Shown here: positions 1 through 25,504 of the stretch, piece by piece | Position numbering within the stretch: the stretch's first letter is position 1 | Layout of the letters: each line of letters starts with the position of its first letter | IMG/VR virus record: IMGVR_UViG_3300044949_000012 | Location: 1-25,504 of that record | Direction: 5' to 3' (one strand) | DNA from: a virus | Length of the DNA: 25,504 nt | Notes under the pieces: generated by a model | Told to the model about the DNA's origin: nothing | What the model saw: only the letters and a program-made list of their open reading frames with translations | Database searches by the model: none | Program-made: the position numbers and the translations under genes

Positions 1-939
1 GTACCCAAAACCTACACCGGCAAGCCGCAAGATATTCTGGTGGCCATGCAATGGGGCGCAGAGATCGGCCTGGCACCCATGCAGGCGTTACAAAATATCG
101 CGGTGATAAATGGGAAGCCCAGCGTCTACGGTGACGCAGCGATGGCGCTGGTGCAGGCCAGCCCACACTGCGAAGACATCGAAGAGTATTTCGAGGGTGA
201 AGGCACGCCGAACCCGACCGCTGTGTGCGTTGCCAAGCGCAAGGGTCGCAAGCCGGTGGTGGCCAAGTTCTCGGTCGAGGATGCCAAGCGAGCTGGCCTG
301 TGGGGCAAGCAGGGGCCATGGCAGGCGTACCCAAAGCGCATGATGCAGATGCGAGCTCGAGGCTTTGCGCTGCGTGATGCGTTTCCTGACGCGCTCAAAG
401 GGCTGATCACGGTGGAGGAGGCGCAGGATTTCCCGCCAGAGGCCAAGCCACAGCCAGCCAAGAATATCACTCCGCTGCCTGCTAATCCACTGGATCGGAT
501 CGCGCCGCCCGAGCCAACCGCAGTGATGGAGGCAATCATCGCCACCACGGTGGATGAGTATGTGCCGGATCTGGATGAAGCCAATTCTGATTTGCAGAAT
601 GATTCTGCAGAATCTGCAGAACCTGCTGCAGAACCTGGCGTGATAAGCATCTACCAGCTTATGGTGCCAGGCAAAGGTGATGCCGGGCCGGTGGTCAAAT
701 CAACCCACGCCACCCAGCTGGATTGGTCTGCGGCCTACGAAGAACTGGCCGATAAGACAATGTCAGCAGGCAAGGCAAGTGAGCGTGACAGGATGACAGC
801 GTTAAAAAATTTTAAGGAAGCGAACCAGGCGATGTTCAAACAGATGGAACCTGGCGCGATGCTGCAGCACTCGCAGGCTTACCAGAAGCGACTGCGAATG
901 CTGGGCGCTGAAATGAACAGGGAAAAAAATCCCGACTGA
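1..939 (+). CDS. RecT/Bet-type single-strand DNA annealing protein (5' truncated by window edge)
   Basis: Likely role: single-strand annealing in phage DNA recombination or replication. The frame is open from base 1, and the first in-frame ATG at 40 sits inside the conserved domain, so the true start lies left of the window. Visible family features, numbered from that ATG, are the run GLAPMQALQNIAVINGKPS near residue 10, GDAAMALV near 32, a KRKGRKP segment, and the block AGLWGKQGPWQAYPKRMMQM followed by RARGFALRDAFPDALKG (residues 85-121). The last 150 or so residues are low-complexity and poorly conserved, ending in a charged helix. It is the only convincing plus-strand gene and converges on the lysis cassette with a 50-base gap. 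This suggests the boundary between early and late modules. The assignment to RecT rather than another annealing family is from remembered sequence similarity. Confidence 0.88.
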   Translation, partial: VPKTYTGKPQDILVAMQWGAEIGLAPMQALQNIAVINGKPSVYGDAAMALVQASPHCEDIEEYFEGEGTPNPTAVCVAKRKGRKPVVAKFSVEDAKRAGLWGKQGPWQAYPKRMMQMRARGFALRDAFPDALKGLITVEEAQDFPPEAKPQPAKNITPLPANPLDRIAPPEPTAVMEAIIATTVDEYVPDLDEANSDLQNDSAESAEPAAEPGVISIYQLMVPGKGDAGPVVKSTHATQLDWSAAYEELADKTMSAGKASERDRMTALKNFKEANQAMFKQMEPGAMLQHSQAYQKRLRMLGAEMNREKNPD

Positions 940-989
940 TAGCCGGGAAAACCCGCTGGTACCTTGGTTGGCGCAGGAGTGGCGCGGTA

Positions 990-12432: not shown

Positions 12433-14237
12433 CTTCCACCCGGCTGCGATCTGACAGGATTCAAAATTTGATACTGCTTTTTAATAATTGCATATTCCGA
12501 GCGCAGCAATTCAATGTCAAGGTCGCTCAGTTTATTTTTACCTCTTCTCGCTTGGTCAGCCAGCTCATCAATGTTTGTGTTGATGTCAAACACAATGCCT
12601 GTCTTTTTGTCCGAGCTGCTTTTGCCATAAGACTCATTGACCGACTTTAGCTTCATTTCAATAATTTGATTGGCCTGCGACTTTTTGCGCTCCTCTTGCA
12701 CATCCCTCAAGATTGCAGATTTAGTCTGCCTCTTTTCTGGCGGGAAACTGTTTTGCTCTTGGAATCGTTCATCAACTTCCTGCTCAATAGACTGTCGTGC
12801 GCGTTGCACGTTCTTTTCATTTCTTGAACCAGCGTCCATGTTGGCCGCTCTGTTGAAACCTTGATATAACAGACCTTGCTCTTTGTCTTTCCTGCTAATG
12901 AAAAATGGCTGCAGATCAGAATAGATAAATTTCTCAGGCACACCCATTCTTCTTGCGGCAACCTTCATCTGCTCAATGTTTAAATACTTGTCATTGAATA
13001 TGTTTTCTTTCATCATCGTAAGCACGCCGTAAGACGGCTCTTGCTTATCGGCAGCCTGCTTTTTAATCAGCGCAATATCTTTCGGGTTTATCGCTGTCGG
13101 GTCGCGGTAGGAAATGCTCAAAAGAATACCTTCGGCCTCCCGATCATTACCATCAGCAGCAATTATTCTTTGCGTCATCTCATTGACCAAAGATAAATTA
13201 CTTCTGTGTTCCTCATCTCTTGCCCGTGTTTCAGCCGTCACCTTGTCTGCGTATACAGAGCGCAAGCCATCTCGAACCTTTGCCTTTTCAGAAAAGTTCA
13301 TTGAGTTCCAAATTGGCGACAGCTGACCAGCATCATCTCTATCCAGCCGCCTAACAGCCGCTAGGTTATTTGCAGCAAATTCAGTATTGGTGACGTAGGT
13401 TGAAACTGCATCAATTTTTGCATTGGTTACCGCTTCATTAACGCGCTTTCTCATGTCAGCGACAATGGCGCGATCATTTGTTTTGACTGCTTCCTCAATC
13501 AAATTTCTGGCAAACACATCAGCATATAGCTGGGTATTGTCTGGAAATTGCACAAGCGAATCTTTTAATATTTTCAACCTGTCTTCAAAATCTTGATCAA
13601 GGCGAATCAACTGCCTTTCTTTGGCAGCCTTTGCCTCCAGCCCTCTAACCTTTTCAATGGCCGTGTAACCATGCGCAGCCAACGATGCCCGAACCTCAAG
13701 CGCTGCAGCTGGGCTTTCTTTGCGTGCGGCGGCCTCAAAGCCGTTGATCATGTTTTCAATCTGCGTTTCAACGTCTTTGGACGTTAAGGCATTAGCGCCT
13801 TCTTTGTCAGTCCTGGTAATCAAGTTTGCAATCTGGTGCAAACCTTCTTGCTTGATTAGGCTGGCAATCTGCGCATCTCTGGCTTTCTGATATACCTTGT
13901 CAAACTCAGTCCAGTTATATTGCGCACCCTCTTTCTTTGGCGGTGGAGCGCCGCGAAATGTGCCTGTCTCTGGATCAAAGCCAGCAGCAATCAAAAACTG
14001 CGTGCGATCTGGTGGGTTGGTCGCGACATATTGCACAGCCTCTGTCGCCGCCATTTCCTTTGCAGCGCCGTAGATGCTCGCCGACATGCGGTCAATGATG
14101 TCAGCCATCACGCCAGCGCCTCTAGCCTGCTCTCTGGCGGCAGGCATGTAATCAACCTGCTGCGGAACGACGCGCTCCATCGGCACGCCGCCCGGTGCAT
14201 TTAGCTGAATTCGACCAGATTCAAGTCTTGTCACCAT
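12429..14237 (-). CDS. Internal virion protein (T7 gp15-like position)
   Basis: This long helical protein of 602 aa is rich in Lys, Glu, Ala and Gln with no membrane span. The N-terminal segment (RIQLNAPGGVPMERVVPQQV, about 9-28) resembles the start of podovirus internal core proteins. It is followed by helical repeats such as IEKVRGLEAKAAKERQLI. Position between the gp14-like protein and the large internal proteins, and the size, fit the second ejection protein that builds the trans-periplasmic tube in T7-like phages. It shows little primary-sequence motif, so the assignment is mainly by order, size and composition. The stop overlaps the next start by ATGA. Confidence 0.75.
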   Translation of the reverse strand: MVTRLESGRIQLNAPGGVPMERVVPQQVDYMPAAREQARGAGVMADIIDRMSASIYGAAKEMAATEAVQYVATNPPDRTQFLIAAGFDPETGTFRGAPPPKKEGAQYNWTEFDKVYQKARDAQIASLIKQEGLHQIANLITRTDKEGANALTSKDVETQIENMINGFEAAARKESPAAALEVRASLAAHGYTAIEKVRGLEAKAAKERQLIRLDQDFEDRLKILKDSLVQFPDNTQLYADVFARNLIEEAVKTNDRAIVADMRKRVNEAVTNAKIDAVSTYVTNTEFAANNLAAVRRLDRDDAGQLSPIWNSMNFSEKAKVRDGLRSVYADKVTAETRARDEEHRSNLSLVNEMTQRIIAADGNDREAEGILLSISYRDPTAINPKDIALIKKQAADKQEPSYGVLTMMKENIFNDKYLNIEQMKVAARRMGVPEKFIYSDLQPFFISRKDKEQGLLYQGFNRAANMDAGSRNEKNVQRARQSIEQEVDERFQEQNSFPPEKRQTKSAILRDVQEERKKSQANQIIEMKLKSVNESYGKSSSDKKTGIVFDINTNIDELADQARRGKNKLSDLDIELLRSEYAIIKKQYQILNPVRSQPGGR

Positions 14238-14246
14238 GATGTCGCC

Positions 14247-14855
14247 TTAGCTTTTCTTTTCTCTGAAGTATGTCTGACCAAACTCAACAGCACCACGGGT
14301 CAATGTAGCACCAGCCATCAGACCACCAGCCTGGCGAGCTGCTGCGCCTGCTTGGACAAACTGGCCAGCCTGGCGCTGTGCCGCAAACACACTTAGGAAG
14401 TTCTGGTAGTCAGTCGATTGGATCATTGCAGCCGCATCTTCATAACCCATCGTGCGAGCTGTCAATGCATTGAGCTCTGCAATGTTGACATCAAACATGA
14501 CGCTGCGAGTGTTCTCTGCCTGTATCGCAGCTGCACTACCTTCGCCAAACGCAACGCCTGACGCAGCAGCTCTGGCGCGTAATGCGGCATTAGTAACCCG
14601 AGCATTTTTCAGCAAAGTATTGCCAGCAATTTGATAGTTGCGTGCTTCAATCTCTGCCTTCTTCAACATCCGGCCAGCTTGGATCTGCGCGTACTGATCC
14701 GACATTTCTGCGCGAACCTCGGCCACCGCCAGGTTGTCGCGTGCTTGCAGCAAGTAGCCGGTCTGCTGCTGGATGCCTGCAGCTTGCTGCGCTTGGGCAG
14801 CGCCGTATGACGCTATAAGGCCAGCGCCTGCGACTATTTGGGAGGGATCTGCCAT
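14247..14855 (-). CDS. Internal virion protein (T7 gp14-like)
   Basis: This 202-aa, Ala/Gln-rich protein has a hydrophobic N-terminus (IVAGAGLIASYGAAQAQQAAG), a long helical middle (AEIEARNYQIAGNTLLKNARVTN region) and the stretch RARAAASGVAFGEGSAAAIQ. This segment, roughly 'R A . ASG V F . GS', is typical of small podovirus internal or ejection proteins remembered as gp14-like. In T7 this protein forms the outer-membrane part of the ejection channel. It lies directly after tail tubular B and before the gp15-like gene, the conserved order. The start ATG at 14855 is 3 bases past the tubular B stop, so translation is probably coupled. Confidence 0.82.
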   Translation of the reverse strand: MADPSQIVAGAGLIASYGAAQAQQAAGIQQQTGYLLQARDNLAVAEVRAEMSDQYAQIQAGRMLKKAEIEARNYQIAGNTLLKNARVTNAALRARAAASGVAFGEGSAAAIQAENTRSVMFDVNIAELNALTARTMGYEDAAAMIQSTDYQNFLSVFAAQRQAGQFVQAGAAARQAGGLMAGATLTRGAVEFGQTYFREKKS

Positions 14856-14857
14856 GT

Positions 14858-17071
14858 CTATGTTCCCGAGTAAACGGCCACGCGATAGTCAAGGCCGAGC
14901 AAGTTCATCTTCAGCGGCAGATTCTGCGACACCACAATCGACTGCTCGCGGCTGTAACCCAGCACGCCATTGACCCGCTTGATGCCCGTGAAGGTAGGCT
15001 CCGGGTCATCCAGCAACGGATTATCCAACAGCCTAAACGCCACCGGCTGATTATTCAGCACAATGTTTTGTGTCTCTTCCAGCACCGCACTGATCTCAAC
15101 GATACGCTTCTTAAACGATACCCGGCTACCGGTCTGCAGCTTGATCTCAACCGGCATGGTTTTGACGTACACGGTGATCGGCAAGCCTACCTCGTAGCTG
15201 GTGGTCGATGCGCGGTCAAACGTCACCGAGCCGCCACCGCTGACAGTCTCGTTACTCTGTGGCACGCCGTCAGTGATGACATTCAGCGCCTTGCCAATAT
15301 GCGGCAGGCTTGATGCGCTGGCTGCAGCGCCACCAGTAAATGCGCAGTCGGTATACAGATTGTCCTGGAACAGCTCAATAAAGTACCTTGTAGTGCTGTT
15401 GAATACACGTTTGGTCACCGCATAGATCTGCGTCACATCCACGCCAACATCGATAAACTCACCGTCGGTGGTGTACTCAGACGGCGACGTAATCTGCTGG
15501 CTGCGCATGATGGAAAAGACCGCCATGCTGCCGTCATTAGTGTTGGTCATCAGCAACAGATCTGCCTCTTCTGTACTAGATGCCCGACGCAAAGCAATCC
15601 GCTGCGGCCCCTTTAGCAGGTGGCCAGACAGTAGCGAGATCCGCTGAGTGATGTAGGTCAGCTGGGTATCGCTAAACAGAAACTCATTGAGCGACTTGCC
15701 CTGGCGCTGGATGTAGACCGAGCCAGACTCAACCGACTGCACCCGAGTGCCAGGCTTAATCCCATTTCGGCTGACGTTCTTAAACGTAAACGACAGCGGA
15801 GTGATCGGCTCAGTACCCTGCTGCGGCACAAAGAATTCACCGCCGGTGGTAAACACTTGGAAGTCACGCGAGCTGATAATGTCGGTGATGACGTTCAGAT
15901 CGTTGGTATCTAGCGTCGCCTCGACCGCATCATCGTCCAAAGACTCGAATGGTACAAAGTCAAAGAATAGCCCGATTTTGCTGCCCCACACGGTCGATGG
16001 CCGCGACTTACTGCCGCCAAAGTACAGCCGACCCTCGTGGAAAGTCACGCTGCGTGGCCAGCCTCTAGCGCTCGACCAGACATCCTCGTAATTGTGTTCC
16101 AGCTCCCAGCGACCAGCATCAATCACCGTGGTATTAAAGAACGGGTATTCGGTAACAGCTTCGACCACTGTTGCCGATATGTACCGAGTAATCCTTGCGC
16201 GACCCTGTGGGCTGGCATTGATGTACTGGTTGACAGATTCTACTGACCAAGTGGTAACCAAATAATTGCTGGTGCCGTTCGGCGTGACAGTCCAAGGCGT
16301 GTCTACCGTCGCAACCTTGGTGCTGCCGACATAGTCCTTGATAATCCTAATTTGCCCCGAGCCAGTGCCGCCAGTAATCGTGACATACATACCGTTGTAG
16401 ATGTCATCAGTGGCACTAGCCGTTGATTTCAGCGTGATGGTGGTACTGGTGCCAGCCTGCGCTGCGCCGCTGTCGTGGTTGGTCGCAGAGGCTGTCAGCG
16501 TGATGTTTCCTGATACCGCAGATGGTGTCAGTGTCGAGCCGATGTTTGTATCAAACTCAATGTTGAATGCGTACTTAGGGATGCTGTCAAAGGTGATCGT
16601 CGTGGCCGTCCAGGCTGTGTCGCTGGTGCGTGTTATGCGCACCGGCTGCAGGTCAGGATGCACCAAAATCAGCGTGTCAGCCGACTGCGTCCAGCACATA
16701 TCGTCAACGATGCTGCTGCCGATGGTGGTGGTCAGGTAGTTATTTCCGCTGCCGTTGATGTTGGTCTGCACTACACCATTCTTGATGATATACATGCGGT
16801 TATGTGTAAAGCACAGCATGTAGGAATCATCAACAGAAAATGAGAATGGCACCAAGCGCACACCGTTGCCTGCAGAGGCAGTGCTGGTATTGGGCAGCTC
16901 AAGGATATGCTTTAAGCCTGGGCGGCGACGCAGGCCACCTTGTGGCTGGATCAAGACGTTCGTTGCCTTGGCCAGCGCATTGCCATACTGCTGCAGATCG
17001 ACACGCGCACGAAGTAACGGGTCGAGTTCGCCCGTCGAGAAGTTCGTTGTAAAGTCAACGAAGCGAGCCAT
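14858..17071 (-). CDS. Tail tubular protein B (gp12-like, nozzle)
   Basis: This 737-aa protein starts with the hallmark FTTNFSTGELDPLLRARVDLQQYG, then NVLIQPQGGLRRRPG (about residues 38-52), characteristic of podovirus tail nozzle proteins of the T7 gp12 class. The remainder is beta-rich with many Thr/Ser/Gly stretches, for example WELEHNYEDVWSSARGWPRS and VTFHEGRLYFGGSKSRP, also typical. The function is to form the distal part of the short tail, and it probably contacts the fibres and gates DNA. It follows tubular A with a one-base overlap at 17071. Size is in the usual range for this family. Confidence 0.93.
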   Translation of the reverse strand: MARFVDFTTNFSTGELDPLLRARVDLQQYGNALAKATNVLIQPQGGLRRRPGLKHILELPNTSTASAGNGVRLVPFSFSVDDSYMLCFTHNRMYIIKNGVVQTNINGSGNNYLTTTIGSSIVDDMCWTQSADTLILVHPDLQPVRITRTSDTAWTATTITFDSIPKYAFNIEFDTNIGSTLTPSAVSGNITLTASATNHDSGAAQAGTSTTITLKSTASATDDIYNGMYVTITGGTGSGQIRIIKDYVGSTKVATVDTPWTVTPNGTSNYLVTTWSVESVNQYINASPQGRARITRYISATVVEAVTEYPFFNTTVIDAGRWELEHNYEDVWSSARGWPRSVTFHEGRLYFGGSKSRPSTVWGSKIGLFFDFVPFESLDDDAVEATLDTNDLNVITDIISSRDFQVFTTGGEFFVPQQGTEPITPLSFTFKNVSRNGIKPGTRVQSVESGSVYIQRQGKSLNEFLFSDTQLTYITQRISLLSGHLLKGPQRIALRRASSTEEADLLLMTNTNDGSMAVFSIMRSQQITSPSEYTTDGEFIDVGVDVTQIYAVTKRVFNSTTRYFIELFQDNLYTDCAFTGGAAASASSLPHIGKALNVITDGVPQSNETVSGGGSVTFDRASTTSYEVGLPITVYVKTMPVEIKLQTGSRVSFKKRIVEISAVLEETQNIVLNNQPVAFRLLDNPLLDDPEPTFTGIKRVNGVLGYSREQSIVVSQNLPLKMNLLGLDYRVAVYSGT

Positions 17072-17685
17072 CAGTTCCTCACCGAAACCAAGGTGTAATC
17101 CTCAATAACGCGCACCGGCTGATTCTTGCCATCAATCACAGCAGCCTGCCGGAAGAATCCACCGCGCCCATTTTCAGCTGGGTCGCCAACAGCAATCTGC
17201 CGCCAGCGCAATGCCTTGTCGCCCTGCTCGGTAATAGGCTCGGCAACATGCCAAGCAATCATGTACTTCAGCAGCTGCACAAAGTATTGCGGCATTGCAT
17301 ATTCTGGTGTCTGGTACTGGTAGTCGATATAGACCGACTCCAGATTCGTCAGCAGCTTGTCGCCGTGGATTTCCCAATCGACACTAATGAAGCCGCCAAT
17401 TGCAGCTGTATCGCGCACAGAGTGCGGATTGCCTAGCCTGTCACCAGGCAAAAGGTATTCATACTTCCAAAAGCTGGTGGGCGTAGTAACCAGCCGCGCC
17501 AGTTGGATCTTCTTCATGGAGAACGACCAGGGGTGCATCATCAGGGTCGAATCTCGGATGTCTGGATATAGACGGTCGCAGACAGAACTCTCGTCGGTGC
17601 CGTCGTTAAAAGATGAGATTGCCTTCGCGCCCAGCAGAATCAGCGCGTCAGAGCAAATCGAAACACCTGTATCGCCTGCTGCCAT
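17071..17685 (-). CDS. Tail tubular protein A (gp11-like, adaptor)
   Basis: This 204-aa tail adaptor sits between portal and nozzle. Family features are the N-terminal VSICSDALILLGAKAISSFNDGT and the block ESSVCDRLYPDIRDSTLMMHPWSFSMKK, widely conserved in T7 gp11-type proteins, and a C-terminal part containing the alternating aromatic Q(Y)QTPEYAMP motif. The ATG at 17685 is preceded by AAGAGG five bases upstream. It is the first gene after the terminator at 17702-17736, so its expression may come from read-through or a promoter I could not define. Confidence 0.93.
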   Translation of the reverse strand: MAAGDTGVSICSDALILLGAKAISSFNDGTDESSVCDRLYPDIRDSTLMMHPWSFSMKKIQLARLVTTPTSFWKYEYLLPGDRLGNPHSVRDTAAIGGFISVDWEIHGDKLLTNLESVYIDYQYQTPEYAMPQYFVQLLKYMIAWHVAEPITEQGDKALRWRQIAVGDPAENGRGGFFRQAAVIDGKNQPVRVIEDYTLVSVRN

Positions 17686-17701
17686 TGCAACCTCTTAATG
17701 T

Positions 17702-17736
17702 AAGAAAGGGCTGGCCTCTCTCAGAAACCAGCCCTT
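17702..17736 (-). terminator. Probable intrinsic terminator after the capsid/decoration genes
   Basis: A 9-base-pair perfect stem, AAGGGCTGG at 17728-17736 paired with CCAGCCCTT at 17706-17714 (minus strand), with a 13-base loop, is followed by TCTTA. The stem is strong but the U tract is weak, so partial read-through into the tail genes is plausible. It lies in the 70-base gap between the decoration-like gene and tubular A. Partial termination would make capsid proteins more abundant than tail proteins. Confidence 0.65.
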
Positions 17737-17755
17737 GATACTACATGATGGCGAC

Positions 17756-18034
17756 TTAATCGCCGTCGGTAGCCGACAGCGTGGTGCCGTCGGTTACGTC
17801 AACAACGCCGCTTGCGTTGGAAACGACATACACCAAAGTGACAACGGCGGTTGTGCCGGTCGAAGTCACGCAGTGGATAACGTCGCCCACTTCGAGCGTG
17901 TTGGCCAGCGCGTTGAAGTAACCCGCTGTGTTGACATCCGCGATTGCATCGGTCGTTTTGTAACCGTACATCGACGGGGCGTTGCCTCGCTTGGAGGCAC
18001 TGTAGGCTGTAAAGCCAGCTGCATCATAAGCCAT
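17756..18034 (-). CDS. Putative capsid decoration / head-fibre-like protein
   Basis: This 92-aa protein directly follows the major capsid gene. Its core reads GYKTTDAIADVNTAGYFNAL, then LEVGDVIHCVTSTGTTAVVTLVYVVSN and a Thr/Asp-rich end. Small proteins of this pattern (D.I.dV...GYFn....L.vGDvI) are often seen after phage capsid genes and are thought to be decoration or head-fibre domains. The high beta propensity fits this. It should be made in high amount, as it shares the capsid transcript and ends just before a terminator. Identification is by position and remembered pattern, not by a decisive motif. Confidence 0.72.
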   Translation of the reverse strand: MAYDAAGFTAYSASKRGNAPSMYGYKTTDAIADVNTAGYFNALANTLEVGDVIHCVTSTGTTAVVTLVYVVSNASGVVDVTDGTTLSATDGD

Positions 18035-18049
18035 GATTCAGCCCTCCTA

Positions 18050-18904
18050 TTAAGCTGCAGCCGCAGTATCGCGGGCAGTGATTTTAACGATACCCTCTGC
18101 ATCGATAGCAATCGAACCAGCCGAGAATAATGCGTTGACCAGCCAGCTGGTCTTTTCCGGAACATAGTTGATTTCGGTGCGAGGGGCGATGCCTTCTGCG
18201 TAGCCGATAGCGTCGCGGTGGAAAGCAAACAGAGTGCGATCCGACGAACCATCGATCGGCAGGCCACCTTCCGAGCGGTCACCCAAGACATGGAACGTGA
18301 AGCCCATGTACTGGTTGATCTCACCCTGAACCAGCGCCTTCACGGTGTTGAAGTCCGAGCTGGTGACCGAAGTCTGCTCGAGCATCGCTGCCAGCGAGTT
18401 AGCGTGGATGATGATGTGACGGCCATCAGATGGCACGTTCTTGGCGTTCAGAATCTTCGCAGCTTCGCGCAGCTTGGAAATGTTCATGTTGGTGTTTGCA
18501 CCACCAATTGAATTTGCCACGGTGCCTGTGCCGGAAGCAGCATTCAGTGCGTCAAGGATCAGCTGATCCTGGCGACGGCCAATTGCAGCGCCAACTACTT
18601 GGGCGAGCTCAGAGCGCTCGTCAAAGTTGACCTTCTGCTGCGAGAAGATGTCCGAATATTCTGCAGCGTTCCAATCGGACAGCGTGCAGGTGACATTCGA
18701 GAAACCTACGTTCATTGGGGTGACATCAGTCTGCGTTACACGGGCAGTAGCCACGCCGCGACCGACTTTAGGGAAACGTACAGTAGAGCCTTCGACACCA
18801 CGACGCTGACGCACAGCACCAACCAGCATTGCTTTGCCCTGGTAGGCTTGCTTAACTTCAGCATCGAACAGCGTAACAAAGGCGTTCGATAGAGAAACGG
18901 CCAT
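18050..18904 (-). CDS. Major capsid protein
   Basis: This 284-aa protein is expected to form the icosahedral shell with an HK97-type fold. Features are the N-terminal ALSNAFVTLFDAEVKQAYQ-like helix (residues 3-22), GSTVRFPKVGRGVATAR (39-55), the middle segment SQQKVNFDERSELAQVVGAAIGRRQDQ and the C-terminal LVNALFSAGSIAIDAEGIVKI. These are typical of podovirus capsid proteins. It follows the scaffold gene and a terminator, and precedes a decoration-like gene. The ATG at 18904 has AGAGG seven bases upstream. A 214-base leader with a predicted promoter lies in front, so capsid is probably separately and strongly transcribed. Confidence 0.9.
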   Translation of the reverse strand: MAVSLSNAFVTLFDAEVKQAYQGKAMLVGAVRQRRGVEGSTVRFPKVGRGVATARVTQTDVTPMNVGFSNVTCTLSDWNAAEYSDIFSQQKVNFDERSELAQVVGAAIGRRQDQLILDALNAASGTGTVANSIGGANTNMNISKLREAAKILNAKNVPSDGRHIIIHANSLAAMLEQTSVTSSDFNTVKALVQGEINQYMGFTFHVLGDRSEGGLPIDGSSDRTLFAFHRDAIGYAEGIAPRTEINYVPEKTSWLVNALFSAGSIAIDAEGIVKITARDTAAAA

Positions 18905-18951
18905 TTGAATACCTCTTCGGTTAATTAGTCAGGGTTTTGCGCGTCGGTGAG

Positions 18952-18963
18952 CCGCTGATGCGG
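18952..18963 (-). other. Hairpin in the capsid mRNA leader (proximal)
   Basis: CCGC at 18952-18955 pairs with GCGG at 18960-18963 around a four-base loop, about 50 bases upstream of the capsid start codon. It is short, and on its own only weak evidence for function. Confidence 0.35.
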
Positions 18964-18972
18964 GCCTTGCTT

Positions 18973-18987
18973 GCTGATTACGTCAGC
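18973..18987 (-). other. Hairpin in the capsid mRNA leader (middle)
   Basis: GCTGA at 18973-18977 pairs with TCAGC at 18983-18987 around a five-base loop. Together with the flanking hairpins it makes the leader unusually structured. Confidence 0.35.
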
Positions 18988-19010
18988 CGGTCGGTGGCAT
19001 CTCGCCACAA

Positions 19011-19039
19011 GTAAGGGTCGGTAAACCGGTAGGCCTTAC
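19011..19039 (-). other. Two-part hairpin in the capsid mRNA leader (distal)
   Basis: An outer stem of 6 base pairs (19011-19016 with 19034-19039) encloses an inner CGGT/ACCG stem (19019-19022 with 19025-19028). It begins a few bases downstream of the predicted -10 element, so it would be at or near the 5' end of the capsid transcript. A stabilising or processing role is an inference. Confidence 0.45.
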
Positions 19040-19043
19040 CACA

Positions 19044-19071
19044 ATTGTATTTGCTTTTTGGAAAAAAGCAA
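19044..19071 (-). promoter_or_regulatory. Candidate sigma-70-like promoter for the capsid gene
   Basis: On the minus strand a -35-like TTGCTT (19066-19071) is followed after 16 bases by TACAAT (19044-19049), one mismatch from the consensus -10. It sits right after the scaffold terminator and before a 140-base leader. The -35 match is only 3 of 6, but its overlap with a perfect dyad and its position after a terminator add weight. Confidence 0.5.
19051..19071. repeat. Perfect 9-base inverted repeat overlapping the capsid promoter
   Basis: TTGCTTTTT at 19051-19059 and AAAAAGCAA at 19063-19071 are perfect inverted copies separated by three bases (GGA). It covers the predicted -35 element and the spacer. 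It could be an operator, a small hairpin extending the terminator, or both. Confidence 0.55.
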
Positions 19072-19072
19072 T

Positions 19073-19099
19073 AAAAAAACCCCAGCACACAGGCTGGGG
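19073..19099 (-). terminator. Strong intrinsic terminator after the scaffold gene
   Basis: On the minus strand a 7-base-pair GC-rich stem, CCCCAGC/GCTGGGG (19093-19099 with 19080-19086), with a six-base loop is followed directly by seven T (19079-19073). This is a textbook rho-independent terminator 20 bases past the scaffold stop. Confidence 0.9.
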
Positions 19100-19118
19100 C
19101 AAAGTCGCGGCTGCTGGG

Positions 19119-19904
19119 TTAGTCTTTGACGTAGGTGTTAAACATCCTCGCTACCTTCTGCCGGTAAGCCGGGTCGGTATTGTATTTTGGATCGGCCACC
19201 ATTGCATAAAGTTCATCTTTGCTAGGTGCGCCCTCAAGCGGTGCCGACTCAATCGGGATGCGTCCTTCGTAGGCTTCGCGGATCTTCATCAAGGCATTTA
19301 AACCGCGAGCCGTGCCGCCCATGATTTTAAACTCTTCGAAGTCGTCCTTGCTCCAAACACCCTTGTTGACTAGGCCGCGAGCCCAATCAACCATGCCGTT
19401 GACCACGGCACCGGCATTCGGGCCGAGCTTCTTCATTTCCTCGGCAGGATCGACCACCTCGCCAGCCATCATCTCCTGCGCTTGGCTGCGCAACGATGTT
19501 GCTAGGTCATCAAACTGTGCTTGGGATAGCCCGTTCTCTTTCGCCCAGTTGGCAAGCGTTGCTGCCATCGGGTTGTCGGCAGAGTCCTCGCCGCCAAAAG
19601 AGGTAAGGTCGTACTTGCCATCAGCTGGTGCGTTGTGAGCGCCCTTGGAAATCTTGGCTCTTAGGTCGCGCCATGACTTGGCAATGCCTTCCAGGTCGGG
19701 CTCGTTGCTGTCTTTGTTCCAGAAGTTCTCAGGCCAATAGTCTGGCCGCTCCAGCGGATCTTCTGCTGGTGCTTTGGTGGGGTCAGGTGGCCGGTGATCA
19801 ATATCGACTGCCTGAGTGGCTTGCGCCGGGGTGTTGGGGTCATCGACTGTAACGCTGTCGAGTAGGCCGGATTGACCGGGCTCGACAGATGTTGTGTCTG
19901 TCAT
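19119..19904 (-). CDS. Capsid assembly scaffolding protein
   Basis: This 261-aa, acidic, hydrophilic, mostly helical protein lies between portal and capsid genes, the standard place for the scaffold. Family-like elements are ERPDYWPENFWNKDSNEPDLEG followed by KSWRDLRAKI (about residues 52-85), a Pro/Asp-rich disordered N-terminus, and a helical C-terminus ending KVARMFNTYVKD, a likely capsid-binding end. It acts inside the prohead and is released or degraded during packaging. The ATG at 19904 overlaps the stop of the preceding 85-aa gene (ATGA). A strong terminator follows, so scaffold and capsid may be expressed separately. Confidence 0.88.
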   Translation of the reverse strand: MTDTTSVEPGQSGLLDSVTVDDPNTPAQATQAVDIDHRPPDPTKAPAEDPLERPDYWPENFWNKDSNEPDLEGIAKSWRDLRAKISKGAHNAPADGKYDLTSFGGEDSADNPMAATLANWAKENGLSQAQFDDLATSLRSQAQEMMAGEVVDPAEEMKKLGPNAGAVVNGMVDWARGLVNKGVWSKDDFEEFKIMGGTARGLNALMKIREAYEGRIPIESAPLEGAPSKDELYAMVADPKYNTDPAYRQKVARMFNTYVKD

Positions 19905-20158
19905 AAATTCCTCGCTTGATGAATCCGTGCTATGAGTTCTCGCACGACAGTCCTCTGCCCTTCAGCAAAGAATGCGTGCGATGGGTCGGTGCCTGGCACG
20001 GCAACAGGCACATCCACATACATCTGACGCAGCCAAGCCAGCAGCTTCTGGCCGTCCTCGGTGGCAAACACTCGCAGGCAAAGCCTAGCCAAGTCTTCCC
20101 GCTGCTGTTCTGCTGGCCGTATGTCAGCCGTTATTGCGTCGAGCTCATCCCAGCTCAT
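19901..20158 (-). CDS. Small conserved phage protein (Bbp19-like)
   Basis: This 85-aa protein contains LCLRVFATEDGQKLLAWLRQM in the middle and FAEGQRTVVRELIARIHQ near the end. These resemble the small Bbp19-like phage domain (F.t.dG..vL..L and EGqR..v..i...i) found near portal and scaffold genes. The family has no established function in my knowledge; it is probably a structural or assembly accessory. Its start overlaps the upstream gene by four bases and its stop overlaps the scaffold start, so all three are probably co-translated. Confidence 0.72.
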   Translation of the reverse strand: MSWDELDAITADIRPAEQQREDLARLCLRVFATEDGQKLLAWLRQMYVDVPVAVPGTDPSHAFFAEGQRTVVRELIARIHQARNL

Positions 20159-20481
20159 TTGATCGGCATCTTAGAGACTTCATCCGGGCCAGCAAATGGC
20201 GACTTGTTTTCCTTCATGCGCATCACCGCATGATCGACCGCCTTGTCCATGATTGACCTTGGCATCTTCTCCATAAACATTTGGGATTGCGGATCTGATC
20301 TCATCAGGTAATTGAGCTCAGACTTGTTTAGGGTCGGCACCACCAATGGAATTAGTGTTTCTTTGCCATTAAGACCAACGCCCACGCTGATCTCGGTCAT
20401 GACGTTACCATCTGGCCGCTTGATCTCGCCAAAGTAGCCGGAGCCCTTGGCCGTCTTGTCTGGCCGCATTCCATAATCCAT
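20155..20481 (-). CDS. Conserved small virion-region protein
   Basis: This 108-aa protein has the recognisable pattern GSGYFGEIKRPDGNVMTEIS, then LIPLVVPTLNKSELNYLM, and later SIMDKAVDHAVMRMKENKSPFA. Proteins of this form are common in phages, either alone or as domains of larger internal proteins. Their function is not known to me. It lies directly after the portal gene with a one-base overlap at 20481, so it is probably made with the head proteins. No membrane or signal segment is visible. Confidence 0.75.
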   Translation of the reverse strand: MDYGMRPDKTAKGSGYFGEIKRPDGNVMTEISVGVGLNGKETLIPLVVPTLNKSELNYLMRSDPQSQMFMEKMPRSIMDKAVDHAVMRMKENKSPFAGPDEVSKMPIK

Positions 20482-22073
20482 TATGCGCCCTCCATCGGCA
20501 TCGCCCCAGCTTGTGCCTGCATGGCCATCGCCTGCGCCATTGCAGCCTCTTGCTGTTGCTGTTGCATGGTTTCCATCAGTACCGCACGCTCTGCTGCCGT
20601 ATTGCGCACAGCAGCTGGCACGCCCAGCTTGTCGCCAATGTAATCAACCACCGCATCTGTCTTGATTGCCAGTGCGCCATCGGTGCCAAAGCCTTGCATC
20701 AGCTGAGTGTACTGGATGATGGCGTTGACCTCTTCCATATTCTGCGCCATCGCCAGCGGTGCCACCGGCACCACCTTGGCCTCAAGGCCGTTGATGCGCA
20801 AAGGCATGTCAATCAGGCCGCGCTCGTCCATCACCTCGAGAATCTTGGCCACCAGCGGGATCATTGTCTCGTTGATCAGGCGACCAAACGCCGAGCCTAG
20901 ATTCTGCGCGAGCTCCTTCATCCGCTCGACAATCTCGGTGGCCGACCGTGCCGACATGTTGTCCGGCGGCAGCGACTCGTCCAGCAGAATGCGCTTGATG
21001 TTGGCCACCAAGTCGTTGATCACCAGCTGCGACACGTTGAAGTCACCCGAGCGGGGCAGCGCCTGCAGTGCTGGGCCTTGTGGGCCACCATTGCGAGCCA
21101 CAGGAATAATCGCACCAGGCACCAGCTTGACCGTATTCGGGTTCAGCACGCCATCGTCTGCCGCTGTGTACACACCAGCCACCGCCAATGAGGCATTCTT
21201 TAGCAGCAGTTCCTTGGTTTTGTTCAGCGTCTTGATGTCAGGCAGCGCAGTCATCAACGGGCCACGGCCATAGATCTCGCCTGCGACCTTCATATACCGC
21301 GAGATTACCCAAGGCGAAGTCTTGCGACGGCGATAGACCAGCTCGTCTTTGCCTTCCTTCCAGATAACGTGGTAACAGTAGTCGCCGCGCTTGGCATCAA
21401 AGATTGTCGCCTCCAGCAATTCGACATCGTCGGTAGGCTTCTGCTCAATCAAGCGCTGCAACGTGTCCGGTATCTTTGCGTCTGGCCACTGGCGCTGGAT
21501 CGACTCAGCCTTCATGCGCATCCGACGGTAGACGTTATCTACTTGACCGTTCGCGCCTTCCTCGTAGCTGACCAAAAACAGCGGCACAGGAACAAAGTTG
21601 ATCGGCGCAACATCGTCACCCGGCTGCACCATCATGCAAGCCGTACCGACTGCAAGATCTAACAGGAATTCACCGATAGCAATGTCAAAGTTTGATTGCT
21701 TCAGTACAGCAAACATCTGGTCGCTGTAGACATCCAGCACTGCCTGCAGTTGCTGACGGCGATCTGTCGGGATCGACGGGCCAGGCTCTAGCCTGCACCA
21801 CTTGCGCTGTGGCGGGAACACCACAGATTGCAGCCGGTTGGCAAAGCGCTGGGTCGAGTTGATAGCAGTCGAGTCAAACACCCGCGCCATCTTCTTGCTG
21901 CCGGTAGCGCCACCTTCCCAAACGCCATAGAGCTGTCGCTGTGGCAAGGCAAACTCGTAGGCATCCTGGTACAGCTGCTGAAACTCATCCTTTTTGGTCT
22001 GAGCTGCAGCCTGCCGCTTGATGATCTCTTCGGGTTTTAGCCGCATCCCGCCGAGTGGTTCTTTGTATGCCAT
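20481..22073 (-). CDS. Portal protein (T7-type head-tail connector)
   Basis: This 530-aa connector forms the ring at the capsid vertex through which DNA is packaged. Characteristic blocks are RVFDSTAINSTQRFANRLQSVVFPP (residues about 55-80), RKTSPWVISRYMKVAGEIYGRGP (near 250) and GVLNPNTVKLVPGAIIPVARNG (near 312). They match T7-family connectors, and the Gln/Met/Ala-rich C-terminus is also typical. I chose the ATG at 22073, which has AAGGA just upstream and lies directly after the preceding gene. The open frame back to 22175 overlaps that gene without support. It follows the terminase and small genes and precedes scaffold and capsid, as expected. Confidence 0.94.
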   Translation of the reverse strand: MAYKEPLGGMRLKPEEIIKRQAAAQTKKDEFQQLYQDAYEFALPQRQLYGVWEGGATGSKKMARVFDSTAINSTQRFANRLQSVVFPPQRKWCRLEPGPSIPTDRRQQLQAVLDVYSDQMFAVLKQSNFDIAIGEFLLDLAVGTACMMVQPGDDVAPINFVPVPLFLVSYEEGANGQVDNVYRRMRMKAESIQRQWPDAKIPDTLQRLIEQKPTDDVELLEATIFDAKRGDYCYHVIWKEGKDELVYRRRKTSPWVISRYMKVAGEIYGRGPLMTALPDIKTLNKTKELLLKNASLAVAGVYTAADDGVLNPNTVKLVPGAIIPVARNGGPQGPALQALPRSGDFNVSQLVINDLVANIKRILLDESLPPDNMSARSATEIVERMKELAQNLGSAFGRLINETMIPLVAKILEVMDERGLIDMPLRINGLEAKVVPVAPLAMAQNMEEVNAIIQYTQLMQGFGTDGALAIKTDAVVDYIGDKLGVPAAVRNTAAERAVLMETMQQQQQEAAMAQAMAMQAQAGAMPMEGA

Positions 22074-22075
22074 GA

Positions 22076-22402
22076 TTATTCGTCCTTGTTTAGCTTGTAC
22101 TTTTCCAGCAGGTTGCGACCTTTTGCTGCCAGCCTTGCTGCTGCACCTGCTGTGCGCGGCACCGGCTCGCCCCAAGCGTTTGCTGCTAGTGCCAGCCTGG
22201 TCGGATCACCGTCATCATCAACCAGCGGCCCACTCGGGTTGGTATAAAACCGAGTCAGGAAAGATCCTTTGCGCCGTGCGCGCTCACCCGATGGTGAAGA
22301 TTCTTTGACCCCAGGCTGCAGATTCTTGCTCTCACCGGAGCGCTCAAACTTTCGCCTGCCAGCCTCAGTCAGCCCACCTTCAGGGTCGCGCAACTGTGGC
22401 AT
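22076..22402 (-). CDS. Conserved phage protein (DUF6321-like)
   Basis: This 108-aa, basic protein starts MPQLRDPEGGLTEAGRRKFE. It continues with KNLQPGVKE, RRKGSFLTRFYTNPSGPL and PTRLALAANAWGEPVPRT, and ends in AAKGRNLLEKYKL. This pattern matches a small conserved phage family I remember as DUF6321, whose function is unknown. The high Arg/Lys content suggests nucleic-acid contact, but this is an inference. The ATG directly abuts the stop of the 62-aa gene. It is the last small gene before the portal. Confidence 0.8.
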   Translation of the reverse strand: MPQLRDPEGGLTEAGRRKFERSGESKNLQPGVKESSPSGERARRKGSFLTRFYTNPSGPLVDDDGDPTRLALAANAWGEPVPRTAGAAARLAAKGRNLLEKYKLNKDE

Positions 22403-22591
22403 TTAGTCTTCCTCTTCGTCTTCGAGTTCAGCCTCGTCCATCATTTCCTTTAAGCCGCGCATTGGCTTCTCTGGCTTTTTGGTGGACATGTACTTTGCAA
22501 CCTTTTTGCGCAGAGCTGGTGGCAGCTTCGACAGCTCGACCATTCCCTCTTTGTCTTCGTATTCTTTTTCGATAGAGATTTCGATCTTCAT
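22403..22591 (-). CDS. Small acidic-tailed protein
   Basis: This 62-aa protein has a beta-like N-terminus (MKIEISIEKEYEDKEG), a central basic helix (KLPPALRKKVAKYMSTKKPEKP) and a strongly acidic end (DEAELEDEEED). Its ATG overlaps the stop of the 52-aa gene as ATGA. I do not recognise the family. The bipolar charge suggests protein-protein or nucleic-acid contact. Confidence 0.7.
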   Translation of the reverse strand: MKIEISIEKEYEDKEGMVELSKLPPALRKKVAKYMSTKKPEKPMRGLKEMMDEAELEDEEED

Positions 22592-22746
22592 TTGTTGCCT
22601 TTCGCTGCAATCATGTTGTCGATCAGGTTGGGATAGGGTCGGCCTGCCTTCTGCGCTCGACGCATCGCGCTGCGCTTCTCCGACTCGGACAGCTTTTGTG
22701 GCTTGCCTAGATCCTTTGGCCTTGGCTTATCCCATACCTCTTTCAT
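22588..22746 (-). CDS. Small basic protein with conserved GRPYPNLIDN motif
   Basis: This 52-aa protein is reconstructed by direct translation between two ATGA overlaps (22744-22747 and 22588-22591). It is very basic (KEVWDKPRPKDLGKPQKLS, then KRSAMRRAQKAGRPYPNLIDN, residues 24-44). The segment AGRPYPNLIDNM recalls small conserved phage proteins seen elsewhere, function unknown. The double coupling and motif make it a credible gene despite its size. Confidence 0.72.
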   Translation of the reverse strand: MKEVWDKPRPKDLGKPQKLSESEKRSAMRRAQKAGRPYPNLIDNMIAAKGNK

Positions 22747-22916
22747 CACTTGCCTTTCTTGGCCATACCGGCCTCTGACATGGCAATCGCAACAGCCTGA
22801 TCACGCGACTTGACCTTGTCGCCGCTGGAAGATTTCAGTTTGCCAGCCTTGTACTCGCGCATGACCTTGGAAACCTTCATCTTCATCTTGTCTTCCTTGT
22901 CGTAATTGCCTGGCAT
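22746..22916 (-). CDS. Small DUF6496-like protein
   Basis: This 56-aa, highly basic protein contains KVMREYKAGKLKSSSGDKV and KSRDQAVAIAMSEAGMAKKGK. They match the remembered DUF6496 pattern (K.M.EfK.G.L.s...G..V..R.QAiAIAlSEAG). The start at 22916 has AGGAG eight bases upstream, and the stop overlaps the next gene (ATGA). The role is unknown; small size and charge suggest DNA or virion association. Confidence 0.82.
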   Translation of the reverse strand: MPGNYDKEDKMKMKVSKVMREYKAGKLKSSSGDKVKSRDQAVAIAMSEAGMAKKGK

Positions 22917-22918
22917 GG

Positions 22919-23620
22919 TTAAGTCTCCTGTAGCATTGGTCGGGTTGCGCGTCGGCTGACAGCGCCCAAGCGTGCAGCCTTGCGTTCGCTGACTTCACGT
23001 TGAAATGCTGATTCAGCTTCTGCGCGTCGCTTTTGAAATCCAGATGAATCAAACGTGCCGAGCTCTGGCATGGTTGGCGCTGTCGGTGCCGTGGGTGCCT
23101 TCTCAGTAAATTGACCCGGTGGCGTTCTCTTACGCAGCTCTTGGCCAACCACTTTTGTGATCATGTTTCCGGTTTGCACTTGTCTAGCACCACGGCCAGC
23201 GCCCACCGTTCTCGTTTCTGGCACTTCGCCCATCACATCTGCCATAAAATAATTAACTGGCAAATCAGTAGCGCTATATTGAGTACCGTCAATGGTAAAG
23301 AATTTATTCCCTCTGACTACTGACATTGGCACATTAGCCTTCTCGCCTGCTGACGTTGGGAAATCCTCGATGGCTTTCTGATACGCAGCCAATCTTTGTT
23401 TGTAGCCAGCTGCTTGCTTTTCGTAATCAGCAAACTGAGTTCTGTATTGCTCCATCGCAAGGTTGTAAGGCTCCAGCGTTTTAGCGCGACCTGCTTCAAA
23501 CTCACCAAAAGCCTTTTGATACTCACCGGTCATAGCATCGACGTTGCGTCTGTACTCAGCGGCCAGGCGATCAATGTCTGTCATCCGGCGCAGACCTCTG
23601 CCCTTTGGTGAAGTCGCCAT
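22919..23620 (-). CDS. Helical protein downstream of terminase, possibly structural
   Basis: This 233-aa protein is helical and coiled-coil-like from about 14-85 (EYRRNVDAMTGEYQKAFGEF and following), repeatedly spaced with Tyr and Gln. The middle domain (about 98-160) includes VVRGNKFFTIDGTQYSATDLP and NMITKVVGQELRKRTPPG, and the basic C-terminus ends RRATRPMLQET. I do not recognise the family. It starts where the 150-aa gene ends (TAATG), and both share coiled-coil character, so they may act together as virion or packaging accessories. Confidence 0.7.
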   Translation of the reverse strand: MATSPKGRGLRRMTDIDRLAAEYRRNVDAMTGEYQKAFGEFEAGRAKTLEPYNLAMEQYRTQFADYEKQAAGYKQRLAAYQKAIEDFPTSAGEKANVPMSVVRGNKFFTIDGTQYSATDLPVNYFMADVMGEVPETRTVGAGRGARQVQTGNMITKVVGQELRKRTPPGQFTEKAPTAPTAPTMPELGTFDSSGFQKRRAEAESAFQREVSERKAARLGAVSRRATRPMLQET

Positions 23621-24072
23621 TATTGGAGCCTCATGCCGGGTGTCAGTTCAGCTGTCGTAATGCCCAGCTCCGGCGTTAGACGTTCTTGCGACAGCAGCGC
23701 TCGACGGCCACCACGGGTGCGAGCCTTCAGCGCAGAGGCTTCAGACTGTGCTGCCTTGCGACGCTCTTCATCAGCTGCAGCCTGCACTTCCTTGGCCTTC
23801 TTCTCCATCTCCAGCTTGTTTTCTTGGTACTGGAGCTGCTGTTGCTCAAACTGTTGACGCGCCATTTGCGCCTGCTGCTCGAGCGACGCACCTTGCTTGG
23901 CATACTCAGCGGTCTGCCGTGACATTTCCAAGCGCATTGCAGCGGCATCCTCTGACTGCTGTTTCAATGCAGCAGCCTGCTGACGTTCGGCAGATCGACG
24001 CGCTGCAGATGCCTCTGATGCTTGATAAATGGTTGATCCTAGAATCGCCAATGCTACCCAAGGCACAGCCAT
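23620..24072 (-). CDS. Ala/Gln-rich coiled-coil protein with hydrophobic N-terminus
   Basis: This 150-aa protein has a hydrophobic start (AVPWVALAILGSTIYQ, residues 2-17), then a long Gln/Ala/Glu coiled coil (about 20-115). The C-terminus is GGRRALLSQERLTPELGITTAEL. The layout resembles small internal or ejection-type virion proteins, and similar short proteins occur beside terminase genes in other podoviruses, but I cannot name a family. The ATG at 24072 has AGGGGG about 7 bases upstream. It is the first gene after a candidate promoter, 83 bases from the terminase stop. Confidence 0.72.
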   Translation of the reverse strand: MAVPWVALAILGSTIYQASEASAARRSAERQQAAALKQQSEDAAAMRLEMSRQTAEYAKQGASLEQQAQMARQQFEQQQLQYQENKLEMEKKAKEVQAAADEERRKAAQSEASALKARTRGGRRALLSQERLTPELGITTAELTPGMRLQ

Positions 24073-24101
24073 GATTACCCCCTATTTACAGAATTACGTT
24101 G

Positions 24102-24129
24102 ATTCTATTGGGTTTTCAAAAGGTTGCAA
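24102..24129 (-). promoter_or_regulatory. Candidate sigma-70-like promoter between terminase and the small-gene block
   Basis: On the minus strand a -35-like TTGCAA (24124-24129) is followed after 16 bases by TAGAAT (24102-24107), one mismatch from the consensus. It lies in the 83-base gap downstream of the terminase stop, one of the few real intergenic gaps. The -35 box lies in a perfect 10-base palindrome GGTTGCAACC (24122-24131). The prediction is by eye only. Confidence 0.4.
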
Positions 24130-24155
24130 CCATAAAGCTATATTGCAGATATACC

Positions 24156-25504
24156 TCATGCAAAAATATCGAAGTCCATCTTCGCCACCATCAGTCCGGG
24201 TGCCTTGCCGCCCAGGCTGTGAGTTCTTGTCATGCGGTTATATTCGCCGCCACCGAGCATCAGATACCCGAATGAGTCGCCAATGTGCGAGTGTTCGTTC
24301 TTGTTGGGCGCATCTCGGAACCGCTCTTGCCCTGCGCCGACCGCCACGCGCTTGAAATGGTAGCCACCGGCCAAAGCCTTCCTCAGTAGCTTGCAGTTGC
24401 GGTTGACGATCAGCCCTGGTTTGCCGTCGATTAGGCGTTGCATGGGCGCTGCAGAGGCTTCTCGGCGTACCTTGAAGTCGTTGCTGGCAGTGGGTTGAGC
24501 CTTTAGCCCCAGTGTGCGCAGGAAATCAAAGGCAGTGACCTCAAAGATGGCATCCCGCGCCATACCGGCAGGGTCGCCCCAAATCATTACCTGGTGCTGT
24601 GGGTATCGCGCATTGAGCTCGGCCAGCAGTTGCATACCAAATCGCTCCAAACCCATGTCGAACGTCACGATTTCATGGTGGATCACCCAGCGGCCATTGG
24701 GTAGACGCTGGCCAATGGTGGCGGCTGGGGTCAATCCGAAGTCGAGCCCGACCTGAATCGGCACATCAAGCGACAGATCGGTTTCGCCCGACATGGTGGA
24801 ATCGTCATATTCAGGCCAGACGGGTCGGCCTTCTTGGACGTAGGTGTACAGACCGCCTGCGTAGCACTTGATCCAATCCAAGTTCTTACCCAGCAGCATC
24901 TGTTGGTAGTAACCGCCGGGCAGGTTGTTGACGTTCTCGGCCTTTGGGTTGACTTTCCACCACTTGCCAGCAGCGAATATATGGTCGTTAGCCTCGGGAT
25001 TGTCGGGCAGTTGGTCAGGATCGACCTCGATCACACCACCAGGCTGCTGCCAAAACTTCCAAGCATACTGGCCGGTCATCTTTTCCTTGACGGCCATCTT
25101 GTGCCACCAGTGATCATCGTCTGTTGGGTTGGTATCCATCCAGATACCGTGCCATGTAGCGCCGCCATCGCGCTTGGTAGGGTAGCGTCCGACTCGGTGG
25201 GTCAGACCATCAATGACAGCCTTGGGCAGTTCTCGCGCTTCGTTGACCCACGCACCAGTGAGCTCAAGCGACAGCAGCTTTCTAACGTCCTTGGGCTGGT
25301 CAAGTGCTAAGAAAATGACTTCCATATCGATGCCTGCAGCCTCACCTCGGGCTGGCAGTCGGATATGGTGGGTAATGGGTGGGGTGTGCATCATCGGCCC
25401 GAAGGTAGATTCGGGGAACAGGTCGAGCCAGGTCTTGATGGTGGTGGTTTTCAGCATGGGGTAGCTGTTTCGCACCACCGCCCAGCGCGAATATCGGATG
25501 TTAT
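24156..25504 (-). CDS. terL: Terminase large subunit (5' truncated by window edge)
   Basis: This is the DNA-packaging motor and nuclease. The frame stays open to the right edge (first whole codon at 25502), so the start and the Walker A part lie outside. Numbering from the in-frame GTG at 25478, visible ATPase features are LELTGAWVNEARELP (about 71-85, Walker B region) and GIWMDTNPTDDDHW. The C-terminal RNase H-like nuclease has acidic candidates Asp246 (GLDFGLTP), Asp302 (WGDPAG) and Asp401 (HIGDSFGYL). The gene order, terminase before portal, differs from T7, where the large subunit lies after the virion and lysis genes. The small subunit would be expected upstream, outside the window. Confidence 0.95.
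   Translation of the reverse strand, partial: NIRYSRWAVVRNSYPMLKTTTIKTWLDLFPESTFGPMMHTPPITHHIRLPARGEAAGIDMEVIFLALDQPKDVRKLLSLELTGAWVNEARELPKAVIDGLTHRVGRYPTKRDGGATWHGIWMDTNPTDDDHWWHKMAVKEKMTGQYAWKFWQQPGGVIEVDPDQLPDNPEANDHIFAAGKWWKVNPKAENVNNLPGGYYQQMLLGKNLDWIKCYAGGLYTYVQEGRPVWPEYDDSTMSGETDLSLDVPIQVGLDFGLTPAATIGQRLPNGRWVIHHEIVTFDMGLERFGMQLLAELNARYPQHQVMIWGDPAGMARDAIFEVTAFDFLRTLGLKAQPTASNDFKVRREASAAPMQRLIDGKPGLIVNRNCKLLRKALAGGYHFKRVAVGAGQERFRDAPNKNEHSHIGDSFGYLMLGGGEYNRMTRTHSLGGKAPGLMVAKMDFDIFA

Follow-up and report, generated by a model that had tools for sequence, protein, structure and literature searches.

A new structured RNA, about 100 nt long, precedes the major capsid gene of a phage group from lakes and seas; it is recognised here from comparative sequence analysis and appears to lead the capsid message from its predicted +1. 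Structured leader RNAs are well known, and the coat protein is usually the most abundant protein of a phage. The present leader heads the message of such a coat protein, lies outside the catalogued RNA families and is tied to one virion gene in the records examined; it probably controls the making, keeping or reading of that message. The phage group is widespread, aquatic and very common, with at least 80 capsid loci and at least 119 pattern stretches in viral contigs. With a cultured member, MEP301, and a portable fragment of ~240 bp, the dosing of capsid in podophages that depend on the host polymerase is now directly testable. A sequence-only reading of the same DNA had already named a structured leader in its title, which is correct and by far its strongest part, while the conservation of the leader was not recognised there.

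The window, that is, the whole stretch of DNA analysed, is a viral record of 25.5 kb with the late genes on the minus strand (Table 1). Their order is terminase (a weak assignment, scored below Pfam's cut-off), portal, scaffold, capsid, a 92-aa protein, tail tubular proteins, large structural-type ORFs and lysis genes, and a RecT-like gene lies at the far end of the window on the plus strand. One late gene of 661 aa (5565-7550, minus strand) contains a long Ala/Ser/Asn/Thr repeat run and perhaps encodes a tail fibre. By capsid, the closest cultured relative is MEP301, a marine Methylophilales phage, with 74% capsid identity. The loci found by the capsid scan of viral contigs, at least 80, provided 79 upstream stretches (L047 is without upstream sequence), which together with the window and MEP301 make 81; among the matches listed, 64 of them show a recognisable scaffold end, with scaffold–capsid gaps of 184-261 nt. 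For the promoter and terminator counts we used 119 distinct upstream stretches, drawn among the matches listed from the capsid-scan loci and later hits.

Table 1. Features of the window around the capsid message and at the end of the late unit
Feature	Position	Strand	Basis
Scaffold gene (T7-type capsid assembly protein), last gene of the upstream late unit	19119..19904	-	PF05396, E 3.4e-36
Intrinsic terminator after scaffold	19073..19100	-	two scans; recurs upstream of the leader in relatives
-35-like TTGCTT, 3/6 matches to TTGACA, 16-nt spacer to -10	19066..19071	-	sequence; aligned promoters
Inverted repeat, 9+9, overlapping -35 and spacer, not conserved	19051..19071	.	sequence; comparison with relatives
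-10 TACAAT	19044..19049	-	commonest -10, in 51/119 promoters among the matches listed
Conserved structured RNA domain, predicted +1 at 19037 (AAGG)	18939..19037	-	covariation; model R1, 145.3 bits (window among the model's own sequences)
Hairpin H1, window loop UUUA	19019..19028	-	covariation
Hairpin H2	18994..19008	-	covariation
Hairpin H3, CGYAA loop	18973..18987	-	covariation
Hairpin H4	18952..18963	-	covariation
Less conserved spacer with Shine-Dalgarno GAGGT (18915-18911)	18905..18938	-	alignment
Major capsid gene	18050..18904	-	PF19821, E 2.3e-75; phrog_3437
92-aa gene behind capsid, phrog_18004 (function-unknown family)	17756..18034	-	phrog match
G+C-rich hairpin with weak U tract, behind the capsid/92-aa pair and before tail tubular protein A	17706..17736	-	counted from sequence
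Terminator at late-unit end	930..948	-	terminator scan

The structure of the leader is supported above all by covariation. An alignment of 58 leaders (57 distinct; MEP301 and the window included, among the matches listed) contains 38 invariant columns, and several unpaired stretches are invariant. In the four-hairpin structure 94.1% of the cells are paired compared with 80.0% in shuffles, 13 of the 17 pairs have changed on both sides compared with 8.2, and double-change cells amount to 138 compared with 41.1. Because such shuffles ignore relatedness, slid controls and further checks matter: pairing in the 58 leaders falls to 5-52% when the partners are slid by 1-3 columns, and when 133 distinct leaders (effective number 63, among the matches listed) were scanned for mutual information without guidance, helix pairs took the top seven places and 10 of the first 11. 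An independent set was formed from 70 hits below 100 bits, on contigs without a capsid locus used for the model, giving 54 distinct rows, none of them 90% identical to a training leader (highest identity 0.897, median 0.75). It yielded 95.6% paired cells, 12 of 17 pairs changed on both sides and 157 double-change cells, against 80.0%, 8.4 and 41.4 in shuffles, in an alignment that is fitted to the model and hence biased towards it. An earlier alignment, A2, is not fully independent, as contigs that also yielded capsid loci account for 15 of its 79 source loci; one of its five measures was not above shuffles (further pair types 34 vs 32.9).

Conservation extends to the loops. The H3 loop is CGUAA or CGCAA in all 133 leaders among the matches listed, and in the same set a GNRA loop occurs in 50 of 90 four-base loops of H1 and in 22 of 87 at H4. 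The domain is also better conserved than the spacer behind it (mean distance 0.31 vs 0.43). Thermodynamics alone would have missed this structure, the mean probability of the conserved pairs being 0.58 (131 leaders, among the matches listed). The window leader folds no better than its shuffles (z 0.40 and 0.12), so the leader is not an unusually stable barrier. A closing helix GGCCU/AGGCC suggested by the minimum-energy fold was rejected, since its bases are conserved without covariation and it is 78.6% paired. Two candidate pairings, a helix AGG/CCU flanking H1 and a lengthening of H4 by 2 bp, consist of nearly invariant bases, and a 3-bp hairpin ACC/GGU around the Shine-Dalgarno (SD) sequence is 98.2% paired with few double changes.

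The leader was then recognised independently of the capsid gene, by a capsid-blind pattern built from its core, which gave the at least 119 stretches in viral contigs mentioned above. Among the matches listed, the pattern scan gave 117 new loci, 21 of them on contigs already known from the capsid scan; the covariance model R1 confirmed 77 of 79 (all except L110 and L133) and 37 of 38 (all except L185) pattern loci, so that pattern and model together identify the leader in 114 of 117 viral loci. Of 116 model hits among the matches listed, 112 have a homologue of the window's capsid gene directly behind the leader; the remaining four comprise three contig ends (L108, L145, L170) and one locus, L090, without a long frame. 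All 27 long records were matched, 26 of them with one strong copy (about 72 bits or more) and the record G015 with only a 24.2-bit piece at a contig end; the sole second match in these records scored 11.3 bits (G012, E 0.34). Two weaker second matches were observed at other loci: a partial one of 22.6 bits at a contig end (L084:1-99, minus strand), with a full copy on the same contig, which may reflect chance, a chimera or a second copy, and one of 13.2 bits (L173, E 0.99). Genome contigs contained 46 pattern stretches, of which one is real and the rest reach at most 18 bits. The real one (L232:53-189, minus strand) lies on a 6.9-kb contig binned with a Flavobacteriaceae MAG, and this is probably a phage contig placed in a bacterial bin.

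Regarding cultured phages, R1 scores 89.7 bits on MEP301, which is among the 58 sequences of the model. No cultured phage, MEP301 included, was matched by the 134-nt leader at the DNA level, hence the link of the leader to MEP301 rests on structure plus sequence. With filters off, R1 reached at best 11.1 bits, which is not credible, on 8 cultured relatives (SI2, three Vibrio, three Pelagibacter and one Limnohabitans phage). Rfam 15 gave no match at the gathering threshold in the whole window; in a permissive search of three leaders, the best match inside the window leader was 9.9 bits against a threshold of 45, and the leader regions of MEP301 and L037 also remained below threshold. The tail of the MEP301 leader overlaps weakly with the freshwater-2 RNA (RF02980), listed as cis-regulatory, at 16 bits against a threshold of 49.9 and over one hairpin plus the SD region only, and the window has no match to this family. 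Within the literature searched, the capsid leader is not described.

The scaffold–capsid gap of 214 nt (18905-19118, minus strand) contains in succession a terminator, a sigma-70-like promoter and the leader, and it is indeed the largest gap found on the late strand, as had been proposed, if the small ORFs at 22588-22749 and 22746-22916 are taken into account. The terminator proposed behind the scaffold gene was confirmed as well: its stem (19100-19079) has 8 pairs, 6 of them G-C, followed by TTTTTT on the minus strand. It ranks first among terminator-like sites in 12000-25504, and by a stricter scan it is one of just two strong terminators on the transcribed strand of the window, the other being that at 930. 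Among the matches listed, 83 of 118 distinct relatives likewise have a terminator-like hairpin ahead of the leader, with a stem that varies in sequence, and by the same criterion none was found in the other 35, MEP301 included. Since the domain begins where transcription is predicted to start and usually has a terminator upstream, it is taken to be the 5' end of the transcript.

The promoter of the window is supported by comparison. Its -35 has only three of six consensus bases, and because of this weakness a generic promoter scan does not report it. Hexamers of the -35 and -10 type about 17 nt apart nevertheless recur at a conserved place across the family. In 82 of 119 stretches among the matches listed, a -10-like hexamer with at least 5/6 matches to TATAAT precedes the leader by 4-11 nt, compared with 2/119, 10/118 and 0/118 when the search is shifted by 25, 45 and 65 nt. 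A strict test of both hexamers is passed by 46 of 119, compared with 2, 9 and 1 at the three shifted places; the spacer is 17 in 77 of 119, and in 103 of 119 the distance from the -10 to the leader start is 6 or 7 nt, all among the matches listed. The capsid gene thus appears from sequence comparison to have its own promoter, and the conservation of both the upstream hairpin and the -10, set against the shifted controls, supports the proposal that it is transcribed independently of the scaffold gene.

It had further been suggested that an inverted repeat covers this promoter and may control it. The repeat does exist, with perfect 9+9 arms at 19051-19059 and 19063-19071, a 3-base spacer and one base between it and the terminator tail; it overlaps the -35 and the promoter spacer but misses the -10 by one base. 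That it is the operator of a transcription factor controlling the capsid promoter might be argued from its perfect arms over the -35 and spacer and from its being the sole copy within the window, where the search for the same repeat elsewhere found no second one (0.02 expected, with at most 3 mismatches). When its own A/T-rich 30 bases are shuffled by dinucleotides, about 2% of the shuffles contain arms of at least 9. Against the operator, arms of at least 7 are found in 2 of 119 promoters, those of the window and L195, among the matches listed, where 2.26 are expected from dinucleotide shuffles. The relatives retain 6 of its pairs (L010), 4 (L020, L023) or 3 (L040, L041) together with the -10 and the leader, and in the near relatives L020, L023 and L040 the terminator is kept too. 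As the repeat is lost while -10 and leader persist, a regulator bound to it is not a conserved feature; we rejected the operator, the least probable of all readings considered here, since the promoters of the relatives carry no conserved inverted repeat.

At the other end, the capsid gene and the small gene behind it look like a bounded message, because terminator, promoter, folded leader, two genes and a hairpin follow one another in succession. The scan gave no strong terminator within the following ~18 kb of the window's unit. In relatives (22 loci of 8.3-8.9 kb) exactly one strong terminator was found in 17, always 173-198 nt before the capsid gene, and none in five; in eight longer stretches (12.7-20 kb) terminators occur only at the apparent unit end (L336) and at the post-capsid hairpin (L337), the latter directly behind the small gene that follows capsid. 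A perfect stem of at least 7 behind the capsid/92-aa pair is found in 63 of 109 loci, with 6 of the 63 placed elsewhere, and is absent in 46, MEP301 included (loci among the matches listed, not dereplicated). The stems vary in sequence and are mostly followed by a weak U tract, e.g. TTCTCACATT. In T7, which uses its own RNA polymerase, the phi10 promoter, the gene 10 leader and the Tphi terminator are arranged around the capsid gene. Here, too, a podophage with structural genes of the T7 type has a separate promoter and a stop signal around its capsid gene, but its promoter is sigma-70-like and its leader forms a conserved structured domain.

What the comparison reveals is this anatomy, from which we infer function. 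Our first, still tentative choice is that the leader acts in cis on the capsid message so that this segment may be long-lived and efficiently loaded by ribosomes. Host RNA polymerase would make the capsid message, the terminator after scaffold would keep the domain always at its 5' end, the folded domain would confer in cis a long life and efficient ribosome loading on the capsid/92-aa segment, and the hairpin at 17706-17736 would mark the 3' end; if that hairpin does bound the message, capsid would be produced in great excess over portal, scaffold and tail. Such a role fits the 5'-terminal place of the domain, the more variable spacer before the SD sequence, the downstream hairpin and a start site that is not hidden. 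The T4 gene 32 mRNA is very stable, and its leader is likewise a structured 5' leader upstream of the start site in the mRNA of a phage protein; the present one differs in having four hairpins, not a pseudoknot, before a coat-protein gene. Against stabilisation and loading, a plain stabiliser needs no invariant loops and linkers (CGYAA in 133/133, among the matches listed), the fold is not unusually stable, and the 46 of 109 listed loci noted above are without a downstream stem of 7. The accessibility of the SD sequence also counts against it, being no better than with shuffled leaders (0.373 vs 0.367, higher in 59 of 131, among the matches listed). The invariance of unpaired bases suggests that the domain adopts a specific fold or is bound by a factor of host or phage, and is not a mere stem barrier. 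Sequestration of the SD sequence by the leader was rejected, as SD pairing is at or below shuffle level in the window's clade, and we found no riboswitch-type expression platform, SD pairing being at shuffle level and the window having no terminator between leader and capsid.

The put RNA of phage HK022 suppresses pausing and termination through the zinc-binding domain of the RNA polymerase beta' subunit. A similar action, in which the nascent leader would bind host RNA polymerase and resist pausing and termination over the ~18-kb late unit with no antiterminator protein, is possible and ranks second behind a stable, well-loaded message. It fits the position of the domain at +1 of a host-type promoter heading a long late unit, with one strong copy per record, the conservation of its unpaired bases and the more variable spacer that parts it from the start site. 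MEP301 is reported to have no RNA polymerase of its own (PMC8024684). The leader would share with putL and putR the presence of a structured nascent RNA near a host-type phage promoter and, presumably, action in cis; putL is located just downstream of its promoter, as the capsid leader is, and put affects terminators at least 10 kb away (PMC9378689). However, the window's unit has no strong intrinsic terminator to pass and the scanned relatives hardly any, and if the polymerase ran through it, the recurrent hairpin directly after the capsid pair would serve no purpose. Moreover, put has ~70 nt with two stem-loops and is present in two copies at early promoters (PMC9378689), whereas the leader has ~100 nt, four covarying hairpins and one copy, at the capsid unit. 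If the reading were true, the nascent leader would carry host RNA polymerase through ~18 kb, an RNA doing the job of the lambda Q protein in very common podophages of lakes and seas.

Third in rank, and rather doubtful, is a translational operator, to which the capsid protein or another phage or host protein would bind so as to turn down (or switch on) the translation of capsid once assembly reaches saturation. The leader is closely linked to capsid and its loops are conserved at the sequence level; the T4 gene 32 leader offers a precedent, a pseudoknot upstream of the start through which bound gp32 regulates its own synthesis (PMC3014915). A sister clade described below also has a conserved 8-bp stem that pairs part of the SD sequence, but that stem is almost without double changes (one cell), and in the window's clade SD sequestration does not exceed chance. 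In addition, the leader follows the divergence of scaffold as closely as that of capsid: among the matches listed, the rank correlations of leader distance are 0.70 for scaffold and 0.68 for capsid, and the partial ones 0.47 and 0.41 (87 of 133 leaders with all genes). A capsid-specific coevolution was accordingly rejected.

It is very unlikely that the leader acts as a free small RNA after its release or codes for a leader peptide. Of the 133 leaders among the matches listed, 106 have an NTG codon (TTG, GTG, ATG or CTG) at position 49 (window 18990-18988), which might be taken in favour of this reading, but the frame downstream is not kept. The H3–H4 linker has 2, 3 or 4 bases and so breaks the frame, and the window itself has CCG at that position, on which grounds the peptide was rejected; a free small RNA is opposed by the lack of a terminator between domain and capsid in the window.

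The edge of the family was approached by a search with the capsid of Dunaliella viridis virus SI2. In 24 of its 80 loci that were scanned with R1, the model detected L329, L310, L330 and L313 at 69-92 bits, and a weak match of 18.4 bits lies exactly before the capsid gene of L306. The SI2-like clade (L254-L300 and SI2 itself, L246) has a different and very conserved capsid leader, CAAGATGCAGACCC..., which R1 with filters off did not detect; a loose expression for it matches 46 of 52 loci, 24 of them distinct. By eye, this leader sits after a promoter-like stretch and usually a terminator too. The 8-bp stem that includes part of the SD sequence is 93.4% paired, with only one double-change cell. 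That the window's leader is an RNA-only processivity element, of which the SI2-like leader would be a second form, is a rather improbable proposal. In five loci (L265, L275, L276, L255, L256) an ATG after the leader seems, by eye, to extend the capsid N-terminally by ~40 hydrophobic residues. An alga is recorded as the host of SI2, yet the virus belongs to Caudoviricetes and has phage-type head and tail genes; its true host may be a bacterium in the algal culture.
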